DNA of 64,000 bases from assembly GCA_949751835.1 (NCBI GenBank), contig CATKHK010000009.1, forward strand, positions 496,001 through 560,000, written 5' to 3'. The translations under genes were made by a program, and so were the position numbers. This DNA comes from Blepharisma japonicum (lineage: Eukaryota > Ciliophora > Heterotrichea > Heterotrichida > Blepharismidae). The notes under the pieces were generated by a model. It worked only from the letters and a program-made list of their open reading frames with translations. It was not told the origin of the DNA and did no database searches. Positions 37,860-64,000 of this stretch are shown piece after piece; position 1 is the first letter of the stretch; the number at the start of each line of letters is the position of its first letter.

Positions 37860-38711
37860 ATGAACATGGATAACTTAATAGCGTATATATTAAGCAACCC
37901 AGGCAGATATCCTGGAAGTCATCTTTGTCCTCAGCCAAGGTCAAGTCAGTCCGTCAAGCCATTAGAGCCCGCCTCACAAATGCAGCTGATATGGAAGGCT
38001 ACAGTTGAGTACATCCATGAAAAAATATTAGAAGGCAAAGGAGTCAACATAAAAGGGTTTGGAGCTTTTACCTTTGACATAGAGACGAAGCTTGCACCAG
38101 TTACAGCTATAAACCCTACAAGTGGTGAAATAGACGATCAAAGGCTTGATCGCAAGCACTTACATAAAAACCGTCCAGTTTTTATTCCTGACCCATCCTT
38201 ACAAAGTGTTTTATTAAGATATCACGGAAAAAATCAGGTCGAAAAACCTGCAAGCCAACGGTCGGTTTTCCAAAGAGGATTCCAAATGATATTTTGTAAC
38301 CCTGTCCCTATCGCCCAAGCGTGTTATATAGATAAAAATGTAGTTGTAGATACTCATAGAGCGATATTTTCTGCTATAAAAGAATTGGCAACTGCTGGAA
38401 GGTCAATTACAATTCCCTTTAACTTTGCTGTGATTATTATAAGCAATTTAACGCTAGAAACGAGATTTAACCAGAATTTTGCACATAATACGAACAGCAA
38501 GTATTATGAAGCGAAAATGAGGAAATCTGATGTACCGTGTGCAACATTCTGGCAGACAACGTCACAGGATAAATGGAGATCATCAGCTCTTTCGTCATTG
38601 TGGTCAAAACCAGACAGAAGAGAAGTTCAGACTATGAATGAAAAAACTTTAGCCTTAAAAATCATGAGTTTAGATCTAGCAAGCTCTGTGAGACCAAAAA
38701 CAACTCTTTAA
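37860..38711 (+). CDS. CCDC81: CCDC81-type protein with HU-like domains
   Basis: CCDC81 family proteins carry eukaryotic forms of the bacterial HU/IHF DNA-binding fold and locate to centrosomes and basal bodies. The 283-residue protein shows the first HU-like domain at residues 38-130, with QLIWKATVEYIHEKILEGKG, then VNIKGFGAFTFDI, and NRPVFIPDPSL. A second domain-like region follows with FQMIFCNPVPIAQAC, VVVDTHRAIFSAI and SITIPFNFAVIII. The tail has SLWSKPDRREVQT. The frame is intact under both codes. It is flanked on both sides by genes for ciliary proteins. Confidence 0.78.
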   Translation: MNMDNLIAYILSNPGRYPGSHLCPQPRSSQSVKPLEPASQMQLIWKATVEYIHEKILEGKGVNIKGFGAFTFDIETKLAPVTAINPTSGEIDDQRLDRKHLHKNRPVFIPDPSLQSVLLRYHGKNQVEKPASQRSVFQRGFQMIFCNPVPIAQACYIDKNVVVDTHRAIFSAIKELATAGRSITIPFNFAVIIISNLTLETRFNQNFAHNTNSKYYEAKMRKSDVPCATFWQTTSQDKWRSSALSSLWSKPDRREVQTMNEKTLALKIMSLDLASSVRPKTTL

Positions 38712-38805: not shown

Positions 38806-41133
38806 CTAGATGTTGCTTCTATCATTATTTGGACATCCTTGAGTCAAAATATGATTTTTCCAACCTTCAATGCCTGGCTCTACATCTTCGTGGCATAAAG
38901 GACATCTTGTCGCAATTTTCGGTGGTTTCGCTGCATAGCATGACTGCTCTTCGACATGCTGCTCAAATTCATCAATATGGATTGCTTCTTTACACCTTGG
39001 ACATTGCGACATTACACTTTTTAGCTCGCATTCTTTCAATAAATGGCTATTTAAATCAAAGATTTCTATAACCTGGTTACAATATTGGCAAGAAACTAAC
39101 ATAGGGCAATCTTTTCAATAGTGGATATCCAAATTGTCCTCATTAGCAAAAATCGTATCTTTTTTGCCACAGAATTGACATAGTGGCAAAGTAGCTGGAG
39201 GGTTTGTGGGCTTTCTCTTAGGAGCACTAATAGGCTGCTGCCTCTGTGGAGGCTGGGAAATCATTGCATTAGGAGCGTTTCCTCCATCAATATTCTGCAT
39301 TCCTTTCTCCAACATTTCTTGCTGTGCTGGTCTTAAATCTGACAAATAAGGCTGCAGTTTTTGTCCTACACATGCATAAATCGTCATAAGTAAATTAAAA
39401 GCTGCATTTCTTACATCTTGATTAGTATTTTTAAATCCATTCAGTGCATACTCAGCTACAGGCTGAAACGGGACATAGGAGTTATCAATTTGGAACTCTT
39501 TTACAATATTATCTAGCAAATTGAGTCTCCCAATTATATGCTTTTGAGACGTTGATTTATCTTTCATAGGCTTCAAAATGCTTTGCACAGCTGGGCCTAC
39601 CCCTACTATGTCACTTCTTGTAAGTGTTATAAAGGTTTGTTCAGCGTTTTCTCTTACTCTTGCATTATTATCACCAATTTTATCTAGAAGTGAGCTAAGG
39701 ATGCTTTGTATATGTTCAGGGACATCACCTCTTACAACTGCACGTGTAGGTACGATGCTGTTAAGGAGAGTATTTATAAGGCCCATTGATTTTAAAGATA
39801 CTTGGGCGACTTTGTCACTTACTGTGTATCTTACAGCTCCTAGTACTCCTGAATAAATGTTTGAGTTATCAGAACCTCCGAAAATCTGGCTTGAAGATCC
39901 TTGGGAAACTTCATTTTGGATTATCCCAAGACCATCCTCTCGAAACTGCCATGCTTTAGAAAAAATTCTTCTGCAAAGATCCTCGCCTAATATAGGGAGC
40001 AACGGATCTGCAAATTTAGACTGTTGGACCCCTAAAGGTTCAGGAGGGTTATCAAGGTTCGGAGGCAAATTTTCTTCTTCTTCGCTTCCAAAAATTTGTC
40101 CTGGAGCTCTACCATTGCTCATAGTAGGGATTACTTGCTCATCGTGAGATACTTTAGATTTGGGCTCAGGCAAGAGCTGATTATTTCTTCGTTCAAAAGG
40201 ATCATAGTTGGGCATATCGTCTATCTGCTGAGGAGGTGGAAATTGAGAAGGCTGAGGTCTTGATGAAGGACGGCCTCCTATACCTAAAGGCTGAGGACCA
40301 CCTGAAAACAGTCTATGTGAGCTCTGTTGTACTGGTGCAAAATACGTATCAGGCATTGGAGGTAAAACGGCATTTCTCATTCTTTCTATTTCAATTTTCA
40401 AAATTTTGGCACCATCATAGTCTTCACTTGAAATTGCATTTCTTTTTCTGTCTTCTAACATTAAAAGTTCATATCCTACAGACTTTAGTCTTTCGATAGC
40501 ATCTTTAATTCGTTTAGCTTCATCAAAGTCCTCGTTTTCAATAGCTCTATCTTTAGCTGAATATAATTGTTTAAGCCTGTCATTAGTAGCTGAATCAAAT
40601 TCCATTTCATTTTCAAGCCTAGGCTGAATTCCTTTTGATGGTCCTTTAATGCTTCCAAGATCTTCACCTAAACAATTAATAGCAATTAGACCAACTTGGT
40701 TGAAAATATTATACTTGTTAGTATGACACTTGTTTAAAGAGACCTTTAGAAATAAAGCTTGGGAATCAATATAAACTGATTTTAGCTCTCGTGCCTGAAA
40801 TCCTGATTTTTCATTGTTGTCTAATGAAAGATATCCAAGACGATTTCATTTGAAATTTTCTAATGGGGGGATTGAGCTAGGATTTTCAGGCAAATATGTG
40901 AAGAGTTCAATCCTTGTAGCGATTTTTGACTGGTGTGATAAAAATTGAAGCTGCTGGATCCGAACTGCAGTGATAAATTGTAAAATAATTATTTGAGGAA
41001 AATCTTGAAATCGGGCTGATTGCCAGCCTGTGCTGTGTGGTCCATGGTTTAATAGTTGTGTTACCGGAAATTCATTATCTTCGCTGCTACAAAATACAAT
41101 GCGGAATTTAAGTTTAGAGAGTTGGCTGCTCAT
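38806..41133 (-). CDS. CEP104: CEP104 (FAP256) ciliary tip protein
   Basis: CEP104 caps the growing ends of ciliary microtubules. The 775-residue protein reads through TGA at 40846-40848 and 39115-39117. Order of parts: an N-terminal jelly-roll with NHGPHSTGWQSARFQDFPQI and the block RLGYLSLDNN, KSGFQARELKSVYIDS and NKYNIFNQVGLIAIN; helices with KDRAIENEDFDEAKRIKDAI; a Pro-rich linker; a TOG domain (about residues 360-590, VRENAEQTFITLTR, DVRNAAFNLLMTIY); and four Cys-rich fingers (CQFCGKK, CQYCNQV, CPRCKEA, CPLCHED). I set the start at MSSQLSKLKFRI, since the upstream codon is GTG. Standard annotation would give at least three pieces. Confidence 0.93.
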
Positions 41134-41930: not shown

Positions 41931-43199
41931 TTATCTTCTGTGTTTCTTTTCTTTATGTTTATGTCTTTTAGGGCTTTCTCTATTTCTATACTTAGACTCA
42001 GGCGATTTCCTTTCTTTCGATCTTTTCCTGCTTCTATGTGGGCTGCTTTTCCTTTTCTCCTCTGGACTTCTGCTTCTTTTTCTCTTGATTTCTTCTTCTT
42101 TTACAGTTTCCTCAATCTCCATCTTGCTTTCATCTTTAGCAGTCTGGTTTTCTGCTTCAAAAACCTGATAATCAGGCACTTCTTTTTGTTCAGCCTGTTC
42201 TATTTTTAAGCAAAGCTCCAATCCGCTATTGCTATCTAGCTCTTCAACAGGCTGGGTCAATGAATTATGAGGAATCGGATGATCTAGATGTTGGATATCC
42301 ACAAAGCTTACATCAGCCCTTCTAAGCCACTTTACACTGATAAACTCACTTGAGCCTCATATATCATTTTTCTTATGAATGATAGGTGACATCATAACGC
42401 CACAGCCATGAAATTGTCCAGCAGCACTATTAACAAAAATAACTATAACATTTTTGCCCGGCTGAAAGCTTGAATTTAGCTTAAATGAGTTATCTGGCGG
42501 GATAGGGTAGGTTGAGGTCTTTAAAGAGGTTTCAAGGGTTTGAGGGTTATAGACTTGCAATAAGAAATATTTAGCTGATTCTAGAAATTCAGTAATCCCT
42601 GCAGATTTGTCTCTGACTTCTCTCAGCTTGTCTTCAATACTTAGTAGGAATTTTTGTAGCTGTTTATCACTGATAATTTCTAAATCTTTGCTGCAGGCTG
42701 GACATTTTGTAGTAAAACAAGTTTGACAAGCTGTATATCCACAGCACGCTGTGATGTATGGATTTTTCAGAATTTTGTTACATAGCTGGCAAGCTAAAAT
42801 ACTTGGGAGTTTTCCAGTGATAATTATTTTTGCTAGTTTTGACGAAACTGTTTCTTCTTCTCTTGGCTTTATTGTTGGATTATTTTGTGCTGGGCCGGCT
42901 TCTGCAGGAATAATAGGTATAGGTGTTGGTATGGCGCTTGACACTCTTTTCCCAATAATATAAGTCCCTGCTGGTATTAGTTCATTTTCTTCTTTATATT
43001 CTTCTTCATTTGTACTATGCAATAATGATAAACTGTAATTTTGGTTCGGGCCTTTTTTCTTCTGAGTCCCATCATCTTTTAGCTTTTTTATTTCAGCGAT
43101 TTTGTCTTTAAGCTCTCTTACAGAGATTTCTGCACCTTCAATAGGAATGATACATCTTTCCTTTTCACTTTTAAACCTAAAGAAAATTGCAGCACTCAT
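41931..43199 (-). CDS. DWNN-RING-YTH fusion protein (RBBP6/Mpe1-like with m6A-reader domain)
   Basis: RBBP6/Mpe1 belongs to the mRNA cleavage and polyadenylation factor; YTH domains bind N6-methyladenosine in RNA. This 422-residue protein begins with a DWNN ubiquitin-like domain (AAIFFRFKSEK, IPIEGAEISVRELKDKI, ENELIPAGTYIIGKRV). A RING/U-box-like domain follows (CQLCNKILKNP, CCGYTACQTC, CPACSKD). Residues about 200-330 match a YTH domain: SAKYFLLQVYNPQTLETSLK, NVIVIFVNSAAGQFHGCGVM, then IW with Trp as TGA (42357-42359), SEFISVKWLRRADVSF and VEELDSNSGLELCL. The usual CCHC knuckle is missing. An Arg/Ser-rich tail follows. Confidence 0.85.
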
Positions 43200-51675: not shown

Positions 51676-54600
51676 TTAGTCGTCGAGCTGAGTAAATAAA
51701 GCAGTTCCTCGCTTAGCCCAATGGGTGTTTTTATATAATGAAGGCAGCAAAACTGGCATAATGAAGTTTGTAGAATGCCCAGTCGTAGAAAGTATGCCTG
51801 CTCTTGTAAGGGTTCGATACATTGGGCATTCATAAATAAAATCATTTTTAGCTTTTCTTTCAGATTTTACCTCTGGTTTTAGTCATAGCTAAATAAAACT
51901 TACAATTGGTAATTGAGAATATAGCATTCTTGGCAAGCATTCAACTAATCCAGTACCATCCCACATTGCGGCTTCTAAATAAAGCCCATCAACGTAAGCT
52001 CCTAGTTGAGGTGCCTCTTGGACTGTATTTTTTATAATATCAAAAGAAAATGTTAAGGAATCTATTGAGTTTTTGCTGAGTCTTGCAAATTCTTGCAAAA
52101 TCGACGTTAAAAAGGACTGAGTAAAAAAGAACCCTGAAATCCAAAACACAGCTGGCCTTCCTTCAGATATCCAAGAATTAAAAAACTGGATCCTTTTATT
52201 TAAATCTTCAACCCATGATACTAGATTTTTGTTTGTTGGGTATGAAATTTGTTTCCATTTTTTGGGGATCTGGTTTTTCAGCATACTTTCTCCTAGCGAT
52301 TCCTGCTCAGCTGTAATTAAAATAGTCCCATCGTGGGCTTTTTTTAACTCTTGAAGAGATTTCATTATACATTCAAGCAGATTATTATATCTAGCCACTT
52401 CTTGTAAGAGAACAGTATTTAAGGTATCATTATAGCTCATTGGGTATTGTTTTTCTATTTCTTCTATATTGAATTTCTTGTTCAGCTTATTTATGATTTT
52501 TTCCGATAAGGATAACAATTGTTCTTTTTTCGCTTCAAATGTAGACTCTACTGCTCTTGGCTTTAAGGATAATAAACGGTTGCATAGGTCATAGGCTTCA
52601 TTTCTTGATCTTGATATTTCAGCATTTGGATGAAGCCCAAAAACTTCGGGACTTTCCATTTCAGGAAAAGTCCTAATGTGGTCTATAATAAATTCTAGAG
52701 AACTAAGCTCTGAAGGAAGATGATACCCATCTACAATATCAGTTAAACTGAAATTGCGGTCACCTAAAATTCCAGGCTTATAAAATGATGTAAGGATTTC
52801 TTTCAGCAGTCTTCGGTCTCAGTCATCAGTAACTCGTCCTCCATAATTGCACTCAGCAGTTAAATGTATCAATGCTTCGTATGGAATATTATCACTATTG
52901 TTGATCATAAGCATAAGCTGCCTTGAAGATATCCGAAGGTCACTTTCATTGAATTCATATGGGATGTTAAATCCAATAGCTCCATATTTTGTACGCTCTT
53001 TTATAACGCAATGGAAAAAACAAAGCCCAAAAAATAATTTTCCTCATATATTAGGCTTTGCTGAGGAAAAATAAAATTGGCTCTCTTCTTTAGACGCAGA
53101 GATTCCTTGGTAAGTATTAACCATACTGTCAAGTAAACCATTAGGAGATTGGCTTCTTGCCTTTATACACCTATGAAGCAAATTAGAAGGAAAATCTGAT
53201 GTAGGAGTACTTGTAAGAATTAACCTAAAACTTGGGTTGATAGGGACTGTTGATCTTTCATTTTCAACTTGCAGCTTGTCTATTAAACTGTCTAAGGTTG
53301 GAAGTCATGATATTGCTAAATGGCAGTTCTGAAGAAGCACCCAATTTCCTGTTTGTGTGGACTCTTTAATCGCTTTTTGAGCTCTATCTCCTTGTCCTTT
53401 TCCAAGAGACAGTGTAGTTAAGTAGATAGCATGTTCAGTTGTATATCTTTTTATTAATGCTTGGGGGTCATTACCGCTGCTGAGGATAAAAATTAAGGGC
53501 TTTAAAGGAGAAGTTTCGTTATAAGCGTTTTGGAAGCTAAATAATGGTGGATGCAAATAGCTTTCTCCTAAAACTGTTTTTATAAAAGCTTTAATAGCCA
53601 CTCCTAGTGATTCTGGCTTGACTGCTCTTAATATCAAAAGTTTCATGAAATCAGGCTGCTCTTTATAAGGATAAGGAATTTGCTTAGAAAATTCTTCAAA
53701 GCTAGGTATAAATGTCCAGTTATTGTCAGAATTTACAAAATTTCTTCATGCATCGCTATGTTTCAACAAATGCTCTTCAAATCCTTCAACTTTTTCAGAC
53801 AGTTGGCAGACTTCTCGCCATTGCTTATCACTAATAAACTCCAGAGGACTTTCTTTGACCTCAGCGATTTTCCACATTCCAGTTAAGAAAAATCTCCACT
53901 GCCAAGGATTTATTTCTCCATTATGTGTCATAATCCTAACAGCCATTAAAAATACAAATAAAAATTTATCCTCTTCACACAATGATGAGCATATCGTCTG
54001 ATACAATTTTTCTCTGAATTTCAAGACTATATGCTTAACTCTATCATGGATTTCTTTCGCTTTTTCAGCTTCACTTAGAGCCTTTTTAAACAGCGCTAAA
54101 AATCAATCCATCGAGAACTGATACATTGGGTCTAAATTTGCTAAATCAGCTACACAGAAATATAAAACTGAGCTTAGAGCAGCAGCAGGCTCATAGTTTG
54201 CTTGAAATTGCTGAATTTTGTGTTCTGATTGTTTAGCAGTTGTAAGCTTCCTTTCTACTTCTTCAGACATTTTTTTTGACTCTGTTAAAGAGTTTATGAG
54301 TTCTTCATTATCAAGAATGGCGTCTCCACCAGATTGTAGCATTTCAAGGATTTTATCTTCAAAAGCTTGCATGTTCTTCATATATTCTGCAGACTGGATT
54401 ATAAGTCTGTTTCTTTCTTCTGTGTCTCGAGGAATCTCTTTTCTACAGACAAATGCTAAAAGCTGCTCACTGAGGCCTTCTTCAGTGATAGTGAAATTAA
54501 GAATTGTGACTTTTGTAGAAGTTTCAGGGGTATAATGAGGATTTGGGAGGTTAGTTAGCATGTATAAGGCAAAACCTTCATCATATTGCTTAGTAACTTC

Positions 54601-57600
54601 TCCTATTTTTATAGACTTCATCCCATCTTCCATAAATACTTGCTTTTGTAGCACAGGCTCCAAAATTGGATCAAGTGTTTCTCCTGTGTCTTCGATAATC
54701 AAAGAAGCTCCTAAAAACAGCGCATTTTCTAATACAGATAAAAAGTCTTCAGACCCAACTTTTACCCTTAAAAGCTTATTATCTCCTTGGTATACCATTT
54801 TCCTAAGCCACTTAGCCGCTTGCCCTTGTGGATCAATAATTAAAGGCCAATTTGTAGAATGGTTCAAAATTATTGCATTTTCAATTGACACTTTATCAGA
54901 TGGAAGCCCATGAATCGTCCAATTTTGTATTTTGATAGGATCGCCTACAGTTTCTATAAGCGAAAAATTCTTAGAGCAATCTATAAAAGCTGAAGATTGT
55001 ACATAAGGAATTCATTTAGCAGTAATTAATTGATCTCTATAATTTCACATAAACGGTCCCATATACGACACAACCCCAGCAGACAATAAAATATCCCCTA
55101 ACAAATTTTTCATATCATTAGACAAAGCGTCTACTTTTTGTCCCCATCTTTCTCTTTCACCTCCTAGTTTTTCTATCAATTTGACAGCTCTTTCTTTTTT
55201 AATTTCACAGAGCTGAATTTCATTCTGCAAGGCTTCTTTTTCTTGATTTTGTATCATAAGCTTTTCTTTAAGCTCCTTTATATACATTTCCACTCTGTCT
55301 AATTTCTCTTGTTTTTCTTTAAGTAAAAGCAGTTTTTCTTTCATGGTCTCTTTGGCTAGTTTTAAAGCTTCTTGCTTAGGCTTTACTTCATTATTTACGT
55401 GGTAGAAGTTGTACATAGCCCTTATTCATTTACAGAGACCTTCTGCTGCGCTTGAAGCATTTTTGACCATACTTGGCTGGAATTTGGGATTGTCCATATA
55501 TTCTGTAAGAGGGTTAATAGCAGTATCTGTGAGAGCATCTCTATTGAATTTTTTCAGTTTTTTAATAAATTTGGGATTATTCAGCATTCTTTTGCCTGTC
55601 TCAAAATAGTCAAGAATATAATTATTCTTATCACTTGTATCTTTTACCCTTGTCGGCGACTCCCCACACATAATAGCAAGAGCTTCAAGAGTTAGTCTAA
55701 TCGGATCTGGAGGATGCTGCATTGTTTTAACCAAATTCAGATCTTCTCTTTTCAACGTATCCAATGCTTTAATCGCACTTTCTAGCTCAGGCAAAGCAAT
55801 CGCTAATGCTTCTTCACATTCTTTTTTAATCCTTTCAGCTTTTGCAGCTTGCTCTTGTGATGCCTGTTGTTCAGACTCCACAATGATTCTTGTCTGGTCA
55901 GCGTCTTCATTTTCTTTTTGTATTTGTTGAACAATCTGTTCAGCAGCTACCGTTTTTTGCTCAAGTATTGGCTTCAATGCAATTAAATCCTCTCTTAATT
56001 TTTCTACATGCTGCTGAGCCTGGTTAAGCTGATAAATACCTTGCGAGTATTTATTTTTTAGTTTTATAGTGGTTTCTTCTTTGATTCGGAAGAGGTTTTT
56101 GAGGTTGTTTAGGAGCTGGAGATAGTGTGTAGGGGTGACGTAGTTGTATCGCCTGTATTCTTGTAAGTACTCTTGAGAGAGTTCTCTTACTGATTGATGG
56201 AAATATACACATACTTTGGAAGCGTTTTTTAGACCTTGTGTATATCCAGAAAATCCTTCTTCTTCCATAAAGTGAGCAGCAACATCAGATAATGCTTCAG
56301 ATGGCCACTCACTAAACCAGTCAATAGTACAGCAGTTAACCAAAGATGGAAACTGCCTTAATCTTGATTTCAAAGTATCCCCTACTGGAGACATACAAAG
56401 TACAATATGCAAATTCTTTTTAACTAGCTCTAAAAATGCTTCCCATTTCTGCTGCTCATTTTTCAAGCTAAATGCTCTGTTTTGTCTCATTTTATCAGTC
56501 AGTCCTTGCATTTCATCATTTGTAAATAAATTCGGGACTTGCCCAGAATTAAGTAAATTATTGATGCTTTCCAAAAAACTTTCCTGAATAATTTCATTAT
56601 CCCTCAATATAAAAACCACATGTTTGCACTCTACCCCTGATATATTGATCAGTTGTTTTAGATCAGCCGACCAGTCAGAAAACCCATAAGATTTCGTTAA
56701 TTTAATTTGGAAAACTCTATATTCCAGCACAAAAGAGCACAATTTCGTCAAACTTTGTCTACCACTGCCACCAACACCTATAAGTAGCAAGTTTCCACAG
56801 TTTCAAGTCAAAACTCTGCTTATTCTTGTTATATGTCTTACTGCAAAATCAAATAGCACTAAATTCATTTTAGCAGTCGTGGCACTGTTGTAGTCTTCTA
56901 AAGAGTTTTCAAGAGAATCTTTAAGCCTTTTTATATTTGATACTTCTTGGTATATTTTATCATCAAGAAAGCTGCAAAATATTGGTTCTGCTTCTATTAC
57001 ATTATCATAATACACCTTAAAGCCTAAATTTAGATTTCTTTTTACCAAAGACATAAACTTCCTACGGTCATCATCATTAATTAAACGGTCAGAAAAGGCT
57101 CGTAAACACTCATGGACCCAAATTTTATAGAGAGTTTCTACTTTATATAGCTTTTGAGGAGGTGCAGCTGTAATCCCTTTGACCACATTCATAAGGTCTC
57201 TTATGTTGAATGTGTAGTGAGATTTCATAGGTGTTGGAGGCAAAGTTTGTAAAGTTTCAAGGTAAACTTTTATGCTTGCGTTAGCTATTTGGGGAATTGA
57301 GTCTGTGATAACTCTGGCGTATTCGTTAAGACTGCTGGAGAGGGCTGTACTTATTATGGTAAATAAAGAATTTGTGTCATAATTTGAAAAATTTATCAGA
57401 ATGAAGTGGGAAGAAAACCTGGATGATATGTGGTTTCTTCCTCCTCCGGGGTGTCCCATTATGCCGATATATGTTAAATCTTCAAGAACTTTGAGTTCAA
57501 GGGTTTTTCTGTCATAAAGCTCAGTTCTGTCTATTGCTTGGCGCAGAACTTCTATTGCAGGCTGGGCTCCATATGAATCTTTAGATGGCATATTCAAGTC

Positions 57601-60600
57601 ATCAATAATTAGAAGGCCGTTTTTGCCTACTTCAGGGCCAAAGTGGCCTTTTTTTCGTTTAACAAGCTTAGACTCTATAAACTCCTGAGACTGGTCTGAG
57701 CTACTTCTGGCGCTAAAAATAGTTGACCCAATCATATTAGCTTTTTCATTTAATTTTTCTGTATATGCTTTAATTATCACACTTTTCCCTGTCCCAGTTT
57801 CCCCGGTAATCAAAATATGTATTTTCCTTGGTATCAGTTCATTTAATAAATAATCATAAGATAAAGTAAACACTGTTGGCACCAAAACATTTTTTTCTTC
57901 TTTAAGCATAAGGGTTGACAGCAAATTTTTCCATGGGATCCATCTTTTTTCATTTTTATTATAATAAGAATCACATAGATTTGAAGGGAGCCCTACGTAT
58001 CCTCAGTTAACCATTTCGGCTCTAAGTTTTTCAGATAGTAGTTTTTTGCCATCTTCATCACAAGTTCCACCTAGGCTTCATACTATTGCTAAGGTCGCTA
58101 GATTTGCTAAGTGCTCTTCATCCTTTTGCTGTTTTTCTCTTGATGCAATGCTAGCTGTGACCTCTTGTTTTATGCTTGCACTTCTGATTGTTTTTCTTTT
58201 TGAGGATAAATTGATTAGATTTCCTTCAATTTCTTCATTTTTTTTCTGGTCGAGCTTTTCTTGCTCTTTTCTTCTTTCTTCTTGTATATCTTGATCATGC
58301 TGAATTCGAGATTTTCCACCCCTGATCAGTAAAGATTCAAAAATCTTTAAAAAGCTTGAAACTACACAAGAGGATGTGCTTTGTATGGGCTGTCTAGATT
58401 TTAGTTCAGTTTTCCAGAACTCTAAGCAAGGCAATAAGAGTTTTTCAAAGGTCAATTCAAAAAAATCTGCATAAGAATTGGTATCATATCCAAGTGGAAG
58501 ACTATTTAGCCATCTTTTAATTAAAGAATGAGGTCCAAGTGTTTCATTTGGATCCATATAAACCATCCCACATCTGCTAACAGTAGCAGGGCTGGCTTGT
58601 GAGAGATCATCAACTTCAAAAAGAAGCCTCATGGTTGGCGTCAATTTAATTATTTCTCCACTGCTCAAGCACAATTTTTTATTATCGTCTAGTACAGTGT
58701 TCATATTTTCAATCCAAATTACATCTACAGGTCCATCTAATACAATTCACTGATGCTCATCAGTAGTATTTTCTGAGTAATTCCTAATATATCTAGCTAG
58801 TATTCCATCATTTCAATCATGAGTATCTGGGTCAGGGCTTCCATAAAGCTGTTCTAATGTTAAACCTTTAGGGTTTATATAGCCAATTGTTATGCTTTCT
58901 TTTAATTTGACTGATTTTGTTAATGCTTTGATCACTGAACTTTTTCCTGCCATAGTTGAGCCAACTATCATAACTCCATGCCGAATTTGTAAAGCGTTAT
59001 AAAGCTGAACTACCTTTTGTGAAAATTCTGGCTTATTGATAAACCCTAGCTCCATTATTGCTATATTTATTCTGTCTGTAATATTTGCATTTTCTACAAT
59101 TTTGTCTTCAAAATTAGGAAATAGATCATGCAGTATACCCTGGAAAAGTGGCCTATCCTGAGCTGTGAATTTCGGATAATTCGACTCTGATATCGCTTTC
59201 ATGATTAATTTTTCTTCATATTCATCAGGGCTTATCTGTTTATGATAGCCAGCAGCTCTAATTACTGTGGTGACAGCTCTCATTCCATAATCATAATGAT
59301 GCTGAGTGCTTAATTGTTCACTTGATAATTTCAAACTATTCACAAGCTTTACTGCGAGCGGTCTTGCAGCTCGAAACCCATACGAGTATAAATAAATTTC
59401 AGCAATCATTGCATAGTCAGGGATCATCATTGCGACTGGCCGAAATAGCGCTTTTAAGTTATCAGGCAGCTGAGATCTCCCAGCATAATCTGGATTCATA
59501 GTAATAAAGACTGCACAGCTGTGGTCTAATGATATTAATTCTTCATCAAGTACAAATACCTGTGCTTTTCTTTGTACAGCCATTTGTATACTTAAGATTT
59601 GTTCTGCAATTACAGATAAGACTTCTAGCTCAATTCTGTTAAATTCATCAAAACAAGCCCAAGCTCCACAATAGCAAAGCCCAGTAAAAAATTTGGCCAT
59701 ATAGACGTGATCAAGCCTATCTGAACAATTGAAGACTACGCATTTTTTTGCCATGCTTTTTGCGAGATCTTTGGTGGTTTCAGTTTTTCCTGTGCCTGCA
59801 GGACCCTCTGGAGCACCTCCTAAGCTCATGTGGAGGGCACACATCAGGGTTCGATAACATCTGTCTGTTAATGGGGTTATAACTAAACGGCTTTGAACTC
59901 CAAGATATTCATAGCCATAGTCTCTTTGTGTGTCAAGCATTTTTACTTCGATAAAATTGTTGTTGAGATAATAGCGAAGGTGGCAGTTTCATTGGAATTC
60001 TTCAATACTGATGACTTTATTTTCAATCAAATTTTGTATAATATCTTTACAATGTACATCCAATACAACTAAAGTTCCAAGTGTCATCCTAGCAGTTGCT
60101 GGAAGATCGCTTCTAACCAATTCTACTAAAATATCTAGCCTCTGCTCTTTTTCTCTCAAAGCATAAGCCAATTTTCGGGTAATTATAGCTTTTTCTACAT
60201 CAGATGTTCATAGCATCATACTGCATGCATGAATGATCTGACTCGGCCATTTTTCAGTCCACCCTTTAAGGTCATCTTGAGAATAATCCTGCACACTGTC
60301 AACCAAAATCATTTTTAATGATTTTCTCATTTCTTGCTCCACTTCAAGCAATCAGCACTCAATATTTTTAAGCTCTTCCCCTTCATATAAAGCTATAGGA
60401 TTACAAAAATTCACTATTTCATCTTCAGGCGAGTCCATACCAATGATAAAATTTTCATTGATAATTAAAGACCGTATCCCTTCAAAACATTTGACAATAT
60501 ATTTTTGTACAGAAGGAATGTCACGGGAGTTGGATAAAATTACAAGAAGTTCATCATTTGATAAGAAATAAAACCTTGGGAAGGTTTTTCTCTTGGAGTT

Positions 60601-63600
60601 CAAGTAATCTTTTAAAGATTTTAAGATAGCATCAAGGGAATCATTTGCATATTTGAGCTGTTCAAGGAGTTTTAGATGAGAAAGGCAGGTTTCAAGGACA
60701 TGAGGGTTTGAGTGGACTGAAATCATAAGGTTTTCTCATTGAGAGTTGATGCTTTTAAATCTCAATGCAGCATTTGGTAGCTGCTTTGAAATATCTTTAC
60801 TTAAAAAAATAGGCTGTAAATATTGCCAATTTTTTTGTAGCTTTTCCCATTCGTCAAGAACGTCTTGTATCCTTAATAGATTATTTTTTCATACCAATAT
60901 TTCCTTTTCCATAAATGGAATATATGGTGAAGAGCACATAGAAATAGTTTTCATTATTTGCTCATCTAGCATTTCCCAGATCCCTTCATTATTTACCAGT
61001 ATATAGCTTCCTTTAAAAGGCATTATTTGCAAGTTCACATTATCCCAATCGCTTTCCATTTTAGCTTTAGCGTTTTCTAAAGACTGCTCTCTTGTAGCCT
61101 GTTCAGAGATTTCTTCAATTAATTCTTGATGCTTCATAATTCCATTCTCAATAGCCCATTCTAGTGAAAAATTAAGCTGCCTTGAAAGCTGCAGACCAGC
61201 CCTTTTTTCTAAATCAGCCCAATGTCTATCTCGGAGCCCAGGATTGCTTAAATGTCTGATAATCGGCAAGTATGGCTTAAATTCATTGACATTTTTCAGA
61301 AGTTCTTGGGTAAGCTTTAATGCTTGTGGGTGTTCTTTAAATACAGTCCTTTCCATTTGCAGTACTTCTTTCAATATTGTTGAGAGTTCTGTGCTTATAG
61401 CTTCTCTGTCAAGCTCATTCATATGCCCTTTATACCATTTTGGAGAATGGTAAAAGAAGTCTCTTATATGGAATCACAGCTTACAGTAAGGATTAAATTC
61501 TTTTTTGACCTGTTCAAGCTGTTTAAAATCAGTGGGTTTCGCCCCTACCAGGCCTTCTCTAAAGTTGATAACTTTAGTTTTCTCATTGACGTTCTGAATA
61601 CGATTTTTAAGTATCCCGAACAAGTAGGAATAGTCTTCAAATTTCATGATATCATCAGCTTTTTTCAGTTCTTTTAGCTCCTCTTCTATTTGGTCAATTT
61701 TTTCGAGCATGCTTGTCTGGTCTTTTATCAGCTGCTGGGCAAAAACTCCTTGATTTTTTGCTATTGATTTCATGCAGGAATCCTTCATTGTTTCCAGCTG
61801 ATTTCTGTAGCCATAACAGTTTCACATTTGTTTGAACATTTCTCATGGGATTTGTCGAAGATACCCTTCAAGGACTTCTATGTCTGTAAATAAAATTTCA
61901 AATTCCTGCTTAATGAAATCAAGTCTTGCTGGGAGCTGGACGTTAAGAAAAGTCCTCATCCCATCAAGCTCTTCTAGGTTTCTAGGTTCGTGTCCTATCA
62001 CTTGTATGCTTTCTTCATGGAGTTCTTGTAGCCCATTCATTCGTTTTTGGACATCTTCTTCTATTAATGATAATAAGACGTCTACACATCGCCGGATTTT
62101 TTCTAGAATTTCTTCTTTTGTGTTCGCCACTTTTATGCTCCATACTCCAAGTTTTAATATCCCTGAGTCTAAGAATTCTCCGATTTCTATTTCAGTTCGC
62201 TTCATTTTAAAAATTTCGTCTTCAATGGCGTCTACATTTAAATCTTTACTGAACCGTTTTCTTACTTTATGAGGATCTAAAGAAATGCAATAAGAGTATG
62301 GTTCTAAAATTACTTCAAAACAATGCAAAATATATAACTGCTTTTTTAGAGCAATACTTATATTATCCATCATTTTGTGGTGCTTTTTTTGGTTTATTTC
62401 AAAAATATGCAGAGAATTGTGGGATCGGACTGGCCCAGTTAAGGTTGTTTCTAGTGTAGGGAGTAATGAGAGATCTTGAATCACAGTATTTAATACATCC
62501 ATAATATTTTCTTGCAAATCAATTCCATTCGGCTCTATTGAAAATTTGTGGTCACTTATAATAAGTTCACATTTAATGCACCCTTTAGATTTTCCTTTAA
62601 TTTTTCTAAAAATTCTGAATTCTTCTCCTTTTAAGTCTTCAAAATTGTCAGAAAGCAGATCTAAAGACTCACTTAATCTCTTTAAAAATAAATTAAAAGA
62701 ATTCAGCATCACATCTCTCAATTTATTTTCTATTTGTGTATTTAAAACTGATAACAGCCGTTGCATAAGCTGTATAAACTCAAAAGGAAGACATTCCTCC
62801 AAATCTAAATGCTGCTGCTCATATGCCCTGGCCTGAATTTTGTCTTCATTTCTTTTCATTCTTTGTAAATTTGCTTGATTTATGATGTCCTGGACATCAT
62901 ATTGTGCATCGAACATCACATTTCTGGCTTCTTTTAAAAATTTTATAGATTCTAGCTTGTGAGCTCTTACGAATTTTTCTAATTTAAGAGGCTTGGTCTG
63001 GATTTTTGGAAATAGGAGCAAGGGTCCAAGTTCAAGCAGTTGGGTATTGATTTTGTTAAGAATTGTTATGTGATCAGGGAATGATTGGTGCAAAAGTCCA
63101 TTCATTGAGCCCAGTAGCTTTAAGAAGTTTTTAGGCTTTGGCAGAGGCTGTGATGCAGATGATGAAATATAAGGAAGTTTAGATGGAGGAACTAACTTGC
63201 TAGGAGGAAGGATCCCTGAAAGGAGTTCTTGTTTTTGTGTGTTGTATGGGAGGTCAGCTTCAAAATCCATTTGTTTTGAAGCAAAAGTTCAAGTTTCTTC
63301 GATTTCTCTAACTAGGGAAAAAATTTGTTCTCTTGGGATTTGTCTTCTTTTAGAATAAAAATAAATTACAATTTCAGGAAGTTTTTTAAGATAATCTTCT
63401 TTATATTCGCTGCAGCTTGCAAATCCTTTTTTCTTGAATTCTGCAGACTCATCAATAAGATGAGTCCTTTCTTTTTTCCAGAGATATCGTCTTGGCTGAT
63501 GCCTTATCTCAAGGTCAATCAAAGCATAAAACAATGGATTTCTCAGCTGAAATTTATTTTTCTTCGAAAACCCTTGCAAAAATTGTACAATTTTTTTAAG

Positions 63601-64000
63601 CATTCTCAGCGGCATATCTGGAGAATCTTTTTTAGAAATTTGGACCATATAGTTAAATCTCAGCACCTTTTCAGCATTTTCTCTATGCCTTCACGCTTCA
63701 TCAATCCTTTTTTCATAATCTTCTTCATTATCATAAGGAAATCTCAAATTAATTCTTGAAACTCTTTTAATTTTCCCAGATGGCCATATAATGATAAACC
63801 TATCATTTTCTACGTCATATTCCTGCACAATGCAATCTCTTCATTCATATGTTCCATCAGCAAAAAATCATTTAGAATGTGCATGGACCAAGCCATCCTT
63901 ACTTTCAATTTTTAGCTGTTCTAATAGCTTTCTAGGGGTTTCTGGATCCAATATAGGGTCATATAGTTCTAGCGGTAGAAATTTGGTCATTTCACATATA
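51676..64000 (-). CDS. axonemal dynein heavy chain, start at or beyond the right edge
   Basis: One frame spans about 12.3 kb with 26 TGA (Trp) codons and one 15-nt intron, giving at least 4,099 residues if ATG 63988-63990 is the start; the frame is still open at the edge. Order from the N-terminus: tail and linker, AAA1 P-loop [10 protein letters not shown] (about residue 1,400), AAA2 [10 protein letters not shown] (1,680), AAA3 [10 protein letters not shown] (2,065), AAA4 [10 protein letters not shown] (2,405), stalk coiled coils with the microtubule-binding tip near 55.4-56.0 kb ([12 protein letters not shown], Trp TGA at 55426), AAA5, AAA6 and the C-terminal domain ending [10 protein letters not shown] and ALFTQLDD. 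The size and short tail suit a single-headed inner-arm dynein. Confidence 0.96.
51889..51903 (-). other. 15-nt intron near the 3' end of the dynein gene
   Basis: On the minus strand it reads GTAAGTTTTATTTAG, phase 0, conserved A at position 10. Splicing joins QLPI to [11 protein letters not shown], matching the LPVIWLKP motif of dynein C-termini. Retention would remove the last 70 residues or so. Confidence 0.88.

Follow-up and report, generated by a model that had tools for sequence, protein, structure and literature searches.

A DWNN-RING-YTH gene in Blepharisma japonicum and an RBBP6/Mpe1 that looks split between two genes

In the ciliate Blepharisma japonicum, a real and unusual single-frame gene joins an N-terminal DWNN domain to a RING finger of the CC..CG type, a YTH domain and a tail rich in Arg and Ser, all of which had been proposed for this frame in a sequence-only reading of the same DNA. 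Domain searches of the genome suggest that RBBP6/Mpe1 is divided between this gene and a second one, and that two proteins of the presumed 3'-end set carry a YTH domain. This combination constitutes the stronger finding, whereas the coupling of m6A to poly(A)-site choice, which had been put forward for the protein, is better treated as hypothetical.

The coding frame and its genomic setting

The gene lies on the minus strand of the window, by which the whole 64,000-nucleotide stretch analysed is meant (Table 1). Read with TGA as Trp (translation table 4), it runs for 422 codons from position 43199 down to a TAA and contains only one TGA; the probability of a TAA/TAG-free run of this length is about 8e-11 given the local base composition. 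Past Met1 the frame encodes no further Met until residue 269, and no stop, so that it offers the YTH half no separate start. The RING and the YTH are connected by a linker of about 40 residues, and the identical frame was recovered from the genome assembly (45.2 Mb, 224 contigs). When the UGA=Trp translation was run against Pfam, as had been proposed, the DWNN and the YTH both scored far over their cut-offs.

Within the assembly, a search for a second copy of the whole protein returned the self-match alone at E <=0.001 (10 candidates scored). Among viral contigs 8 stretches fitted a search pattern and among bacterial and archaeal genome contigs 55 did so, with none confirmed in either collection; as these collections are viral, bacterial and archaeal only, the absence of relatives from them is uninformative on other ciliates.

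Table 1. Features of the DWNN-RING-YTH gene (positions in the window) and of related genes (contig and positions in the assembly)
Feature	Location	Strand	Basis
Whole coding frame, 422 codons + TAA, TGA as Trp	41931..43199	-	Translation; no Met at 2-268
DWNN ubiquitin-like domain, residues 5-86	42942..43187	-	Pfam 1.2e-16; Mpe1 UBL 2.3e-6 (phmmer vs PDB chains)
RING finger, C137-C169, eight Cys	42693..42791	-	Cys spacing; Pfam RING models below cut-off
YTH domain, residues 209-330, m6A site apparently eroded	42210..42575	-	Pfam 5.6e-17; Foldseek; residue table
Tyr231, first cage Trp position (YTHDC1 W377)	42507..42509	-	Alignments
TGA codon = Trp281, second cage Trp position (YTHDC1 W428)	42357..42359	-	Translation and alignment
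Basic Arg/Ser/Lys tail, residues 372-422	41934..42086	-	Read off translation
P0004, RBBP6/Mpe1-like, 196 aa: zinc knuckle, sensing region, RING, no DWNN	C4:320741-321328		Pfam and phmmer
P0003, CPSF30-YTH: CCCH fingers and YTH	C48:308150-309052		Pfam and phmmer
P0006, METTL3-like MT-A70 domain then ZZ fingers, probable 16-nt intron after first ZZ pieces	C15:420767-424306	-	
WTAP-model matches over cut-off (provisional)	C18:372528-372992; C109:101511-101975; C1:103732-104193		

The use of TGA for Trp is seen at conserved sites, namely Trp165 of an MT-A70 protein, within its DPPW motif, Trp223 of CPSF30, which aligns with a Trp of solved YTH domains, and Trp281 of the DWNN-RING-YTH chain; CPSF30 has one more TGA, Trp16, which falls opposite a Lys of CPSF4 and is no proof of the code. 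In the MT-A70/ZZ gene a 16-nt GT..AG string stands where the frame changes. Of six contig ends examined one carries a long TGTTAGGG run, and another contig starts with a piece of the complement. For Blepharisma stoltei, UGA as Trp, introns mostly of 15 and 16 bp and, as telomeric repeats, permutations of CCCTAACA are described in passages of a published study (PMC9942806).

Other genes of the window were observed in passing. They comprise a CEP104-like protein in a single frame (38809-41133, minus strand) with the N-terminal, TOG and zinc-finger domains and a UVR motif, a protein in which the two eukaryotic HU domains of the CCDC81 type are both present (37860-38708, plus strand), and an open frame that, with UGA read as Trp, spans 4033 codons and reaches nearly to the window end (51892-63990, minus strand).

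RBBP6/Mpe1 modules in two genes

The DWNN was detected with 61.1 bits against a Pfam cut-off of 26 and, together with the match of the N-terminus to the UBL of Mpe1, ties the chain to RBBP6/Mpe1 of the 3'-end machinery, as had been claimed. It is the single DWNN match in the genome (one of one candidate scored in 45.2 Mb), and no further match was found in the assembly at E <=10. The DWNN and YTH models were silent in 14 control genomes, a weak control since those named are bacteria and archaea. Passages of Pugh and others describe the DWNN solely from the RBBP6 family, and its form with knuckle and RING from all complete eukaryotic genomes analysed by then (Pugh et al., 2006; PMC1360078).

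In Mpe1, the joint mutation of F9, D45, R76 and P78 blocks assembly, according to passages of the study concerned (PMC9380774). At this Mpe1-Ysh1 interface, F9 and R76 are kept in the DWNN as F9 and R85, and D45 and P78 are changed to N54 and S87, the P78/S87 pairing being a one-residue extension past the printed phmmer alignment; the predicted contact with CPSF73 would thus retain two of the four Mpe1 residues, as judged from the alignment. CPSF73 itself, the DWNN target, is encoded in the genome (3.2e-206 to the CPSF3 chain 6v4x_H).

The zinc knuckle of RBBP6 had been called missing. It is indeed absent from the DWNN-RING-YTH chain, in which Pfam finds no zf-CCHC match and phmmer aligns Mpe1 at the UBL and not over the knuckle or the pre-mRNA-sensing region; a simple loss, however, does not describe the genome, where a knuckle, a sensing region and a RING matching Mpe1 are found in P0004. 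A zf-CCHC_2 search of the assembly gave nine matches at E <=1 from 10 candidates, of which P0004 was the one over the cut-off (35.4 bits, cut-off 27; CCHC residues C33, C36, H41 and C46); this loose search also gave below-cut-off matches in 3 of 14 control genomes. Besides the CCHC knuckle, P0004 contains the segment RLKRPSGIPTTFL and a RING, and it aligns to Mpe1 (4.3e-20) over two stretches that take in knuckle, sensing region and RING. It also matches the RBBP6 knuckle structure 2ysa (9.3e-11) and the RBBP6 RING (1.1e-7), the latter not exclusively, since BRE1B is reached at 1.9e-7. P68 and F104 of P0004 sit at P215 and W257 of Mpe1, of which P215 contacts RNA of the poly(A) signal, and W257 is conserved as an aromatic residue (passages of PMC9380774). 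P0004 has a stop codon two codons upstream of its Met and gives no DWNN match in Pfam. Elsewhere among eukaryotes, DWNN, zinc knuckle, sensing region and RING share a single chain. The RBBP6/Mpe1 modules of this genome are spread over two chains, each with a RING, and RBBP6/Mpe1 looks split between two genes.

The RING of the DWNN chain is less telling of descent. Its eight Cys (C137, C140, C152, C153, C158, C161, C166 and C169) include the motif CC-G-x3-C-x2-C, a spacing that is also that of the RBBP6 RING; the Pfam RING models, placed within residues 130-173, stay below cut-off (best E 0.038). A one-to-one BLAST comparison with the P0004 RING gave 2e-5. Yet when residues 125-205 were searched against the genome, eight other loci came up and P0004 did not (9 of 9 candidates scored, counting the self-match). 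P0004 ranked seventh by phmmer and by BLAST alike, behind six other RING frames, in a set made up of P0004 and the loci picked by earlier RING searches, a composition that favours the matches of those searches. The top phmmer neighbour in the genome is of the Sina type (43 bits, cut-off 29.3), and among the PDB chains RBBP6 RINGs appear at 0.057 and 0.089, level with those of TRAF5 and RING2. Fission with fusion to another RING would be as likely as duplication with complementary loss. A split by the latter route with a shared RBBP6 RING is not supported, because in that set six RING frames of the genome outrank the P0004 RING.

The YTH domain and the m6A setting

The absence of a YTH fold at residues 200-330, which would have spoken against the proposed architecture, was checked for, and both Pfam (62.2 bits, cut-off 22.1) and Foldseek find YTH. 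By phmmer against PDB chains, the C-terminal half matches YTHDC2, CPSF30 and YTHDC1. AlphaFold models of modest quality (3- and 4-row alignments) reached a mean pLDDT of 70 (YTH part) and 61 (full length); in the full-length model most of the DWNN and RING regions have low confidence, and they are uninformative. The best Foldseek E to a solved YTH was 9.1e-10 with the YTH-only model and 2.0e-9 with the full-length one. The best 50 rows of either model were YTH chains, those of the YTH-only model all at E <1e-7 and with Mmi1 filling the first eight, and YTHDC1 leads for the full-length model; the entries 4r3h and 4r3i bear neutral titles and are listed elsewhere as YTHDC1.

As described in passages of a review, the cage of YTHDC1 consists of W377, W428 and L439, with polar contacts by S378, N363 and N367; W428 makes the methyl-pi contact, both cage Trps are strictly conserved in YTH readers, and the N1 contact is Asn, Asp or His (PMC6356822). 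The same source relates the m6A blindness of Mmi1 to an Ala at the N1 contact and to negatively charged surroundings of the pocket (PMC6356822).

The equivalent residues were taken from an alignment with three solved references (YTHDC2, AtCPSF30 and YTHDF3), for which both MAFFT modes agree at the eight columns read; an alignment of the three Blepharisma YTH sequences alone gave poor loops and was not used for this purpose. The N1 contact N367 has become Thr221 (N, N and D in the references) and the S378 position P232 (S, A and C). The first cage Trp, W377, is Tyr231, as had been suspected, and the second, W428, is kept as Trp281, which agrees with the claim that the TGA at 42357 encodes a cage Trp. 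The N363 position holds Tyr and is uninformative, since the references have S, N and Y. The Lys that follows FIM/FVV/FII is Q215 and the Arg of SRD is Gln, both positions being assumed here to contact RNA. At L439, the third cage position, the alignment has a gap and phmmer sets F286; because the L439 column is also gapped in YTHDF3 and in P0002, another YTH protein of the genome, and the Arg column in P0002, those changes weigh little. In all, four m6A/RNA contact positions common to the three references (Lys, Asn/Asp, Trp and Arg) are altered in this YTH, and where YTH m6A readers combine two cage Trps with an Asn, Asp or His at the N1 contact, it has Y231, W281 and T221. Its net charge, compared over fragments of 127-140 residues, is -2 (pI 6.2), against +1 in P0003, +4 in P0002 and +3, +5 and +6 in the references. 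The YTH of the DWNN-RING-YTH chain has thus probably lost most m6A contacts and with them standard m6A reading; m6A reading by it is doubtful, and Thr221 with Tyr231 could permit weak m6A binding. Of the claim that the protein is an m6A reader, the YTH fold stands, and the reading itself is weakened by the four altered positions and the net negative domain.

The assembly holds three YTH matches over cut-off (three of three candidates scored in 45.2 Mb). P0002, encoded on contig C19, is of the YTHDF-like kind, matching YTHDF3 at 2.3e-37, and keeps the K, D, W and W of the site. P0003 is CPSF30-YTH: its CCCH fingers match CPSF4 chains (2.2e-27), and its YTH matches a CCCH-type Toxoplasma protein, 7ng2, at 3.7e-18 and AtCPSF30 at 2.1e-17. 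The reader had been thought to sit on a different subunit instead of CPSF30, and it had been advised to check whether CPSF30 lacks a YTH; since CPSF30 carries one here, the DWNN-linked YTH is an addition and not an alternative, and two presumed 3'-end subunits bear the domain. Pfam finds no CCCH fingers in the DWNN-RING-YTH chain, and its YTH shares 21% identity with that of P0003 over 154 columns. P0003 has Ala at N367 and Phe at W428 and keeps the first cage Trp, so the YTH domains of both presumed 3'-end subunits appear altered at key positions, that of DWNN-RING-YTH more so. In a passage of a review that cites Toxoplasma CPSF4 work, Tetrahymena is placed among the species whose poly(A) proteins have no YTH, an entry against which a CPSF30-YTH in a ciliate is noteworthy (PMC9778586).

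Two MT-A70 proteins were found (two of two candidates, and the same at E <=10), both closer to METTL3 than to METTL14. P0005 matches 7f4l at 2e-85, which we take to be Tetrahymena MTA1, a DNA 6mA enzyme, and P0006, with ZZ fingers in the same protein, matches METTL3 at 1.8e-39. No METTL14-type partner was found at E <=10, a search in which introns or the loose first pass could hide one. The WTAP model gave 3 of 16 scored candidates over its cut-off and below-cut-off matches in 3 of 14 controls; the matches are provisional because they are coiled coils. The trio may represent an expanded WTAP family. RNA m6A in this ciliate is plausible.

Known systems and explanations

The architecture had been presented as undescribed, and no published DWNN and YTH combination was found in the open-licence literature, so that an earlier description may exist elsewhere. 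For RBBP6 with YTH, the sole relevant paper by title and passages was a Toxoplasma study (PMC8354455). By title, nothing listed in that literature dealt with YTH m6A readers of ciliate protists, a query on the architecture leading to a dinoflagellate review, and nothing was on point for RBBP6, Mpe1 or DWNN in Tetrahymena. According to passages of the Toxoplasma study, subunits of CPSF and CstF co-purified with YTH1, which is CPSF30-YTH. YTH2, a YTH protein that has no fingers, brought down a RING-type protein resembling RBBP6 in its N-terminal region (6 and 8 peptides), CFIm25 (2 and 3 peptides) and an RRM protein, but no CPSF subunit of those given for YTH1, and the authors leave the part played by YTH2 open (PMC8354455).

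In its domains the Blepharisma protein resembles this Toxoplasma pair (PMC8354455), in that a CCCH-less YTH is tied to RBBP6 beside a CPSF30-YTH, but here in one chain and not two proteins; by analogy, a fused chain in an alveolate other than Toxoplasma would be consistent with YTH2 and the RBBP6 homologue being physically paired. Like RBBP6/Mpe1 it has a DWNN at its N-terminus, in which two of the four CPSF73-contact positions are identical, and a RING in the chain, with knuckle, sensing region and another RING in the genome; unlike RBBP6/Mpe1, it leaves knuckle and sensing region to another gene, has gained a YTH and bears a RING that is not clearly that of RBBP6. As in the CPSF30-YTH of plants and apicomplexans, the YTH is on a presumed subunit of CPF, the cleavage and polyadenylation factor, though on a different one and without CCCH fingers. 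Mmi1 of S. pombe, which is not known to carry a DWNN or RING, shares a YTH fold with a lost N1 contact. Mmi1 nevertheless keeps both Trps (passages of PMC6356822).

From the observed domain make-up, division of modules, YTH proteins and residue changes, we infer, with about even confidence, that the gene is the ubiquitin-like half of a divided RBBP6/Mpe1, an activator of CPSF73, with an eroded YTH; its CPF membership, its partnership with P0004 and the task of the YTH are the inferential parts. The DWNN would dock on CPSF73, P0004 would detect the poly(A) signal on the polymerase module, and the YTH with the basic tail would add a contact to RNA or to 3'-end factors, as Toxoplasma YTH2 may do with the RBBP6 homologue. 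The DWNN and YTH scores within one frame, the single DWNN, the separate P0004, CPSF30-YTH, the presence of CPSF73, the kept F9 and R76 and the recovery of an RBBP6 homologue and CFIm25 with Toxoplasma YTH2 (PMC8354455) count for this explanation, and the changed m6A contacts and the acidic domain for its eroded-reader step, Mmi1 having likewise lost the N1 contact and having negative charge around its pocket (PMC6356822). Against it count the D45 to N and P78 to S changes at the Mpe1 interface, a RING that is not nearest to P0004 and for which RBBP6 RINGs are no better than TRAF5 or RING2, the reliance on one genome, and a Toxoplasma link that is co-purification in another phylum. The fuller form, in which the DWNN half of the split protein is a second YTH-bearing 3'-end subunit whose YTH has turned from an m6A reader into another RNA or protein contact, is advanced only tentatively.

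Were the YTH a working m6A reader, the protein would couple m6A directly to poly(A)-site choice beside CPSF30-YTH. The sound fold, the kept Trp281, equivalent of the methyl-pi W428 (passages of PMC6356822), and the RNA m6A suggested by the site-keeping P0002, the METTL3-matching MT-A70 protein and the three WTAP-model matches are in keeping with this; given Q215 for Lys, T221 for Asn/Asp, Y231 for Trp, Gln for the flanking Arg, a third cage position that is gapped or F286, the charge of -2 against +3, +5 and +6, and no METTL14-type partner found where both MT-A70 proteins are nearer METTL3, it is rather unlikely. An RNA-directed ubiquitin ligase outside CPF, with the DWNN as ubiquitin-like part, the RING recruiting an E2 and the YTH picking an RNA or RNP target, would agree with the eight-Cys RING, whose nearest genome matches are other RINGs (Sina-type best), and with the lack of knuckle and sensing region in the chain. 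It is unlikely in view of the report of DWNN only from the RBBP6 family (passages of PMC1360078, 2006) and of the partly kept CPSF73 contact; moreover, with no DWNN in P0004, CPF either uses the DWNN-RING-YTH chain or has no DWNN. Finally, the fusion might be an artefact in which two adjacent genes were read as one frame, an intron was overlooked or the assembly is wrong. Tiny introns could mask boundaries, as the probable 16-nt intron in another gene illustrates, and the frame contains GT..AG strings of 15 nt (2), 16 nt (6) and 17 nt (5), among them one of 16 nt (near residue 118) and two of 17 nt (near 133 and 151) between DWNN and YTH. Such an artefact is nonetheless very improbable: the frame is single and stop-free, Met-free over 2-268 and with its RING-YTH linker of some 40 residues, the two 15-nt strings lie in the DWNN and after the YTH, removal of one 16- or 17-nt string throws the YTH out of frame, and the assembly carries the same frame.

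RBBP6/Mpe1 couples RNA sensing to the activation of an endonuclease, and a natural split of this protein, in a genome that has its DWNN, knuckle, sensing region and RING, would test which of its modules need to be in one chain. If the YTH is orthologous to Toxoplasma YTH2, the fusion would explain the co-purification in Toxoplasma, and the link between YTH and RBBP6 would be older than Apicomplexa. With two presumed 3'-end proteins whose YTH sites appear eroded, and a YTHDF-like protein in which the main contacts are retained, the genome raises the question of whether the YTH domains of 3'-end proteins need m6A.
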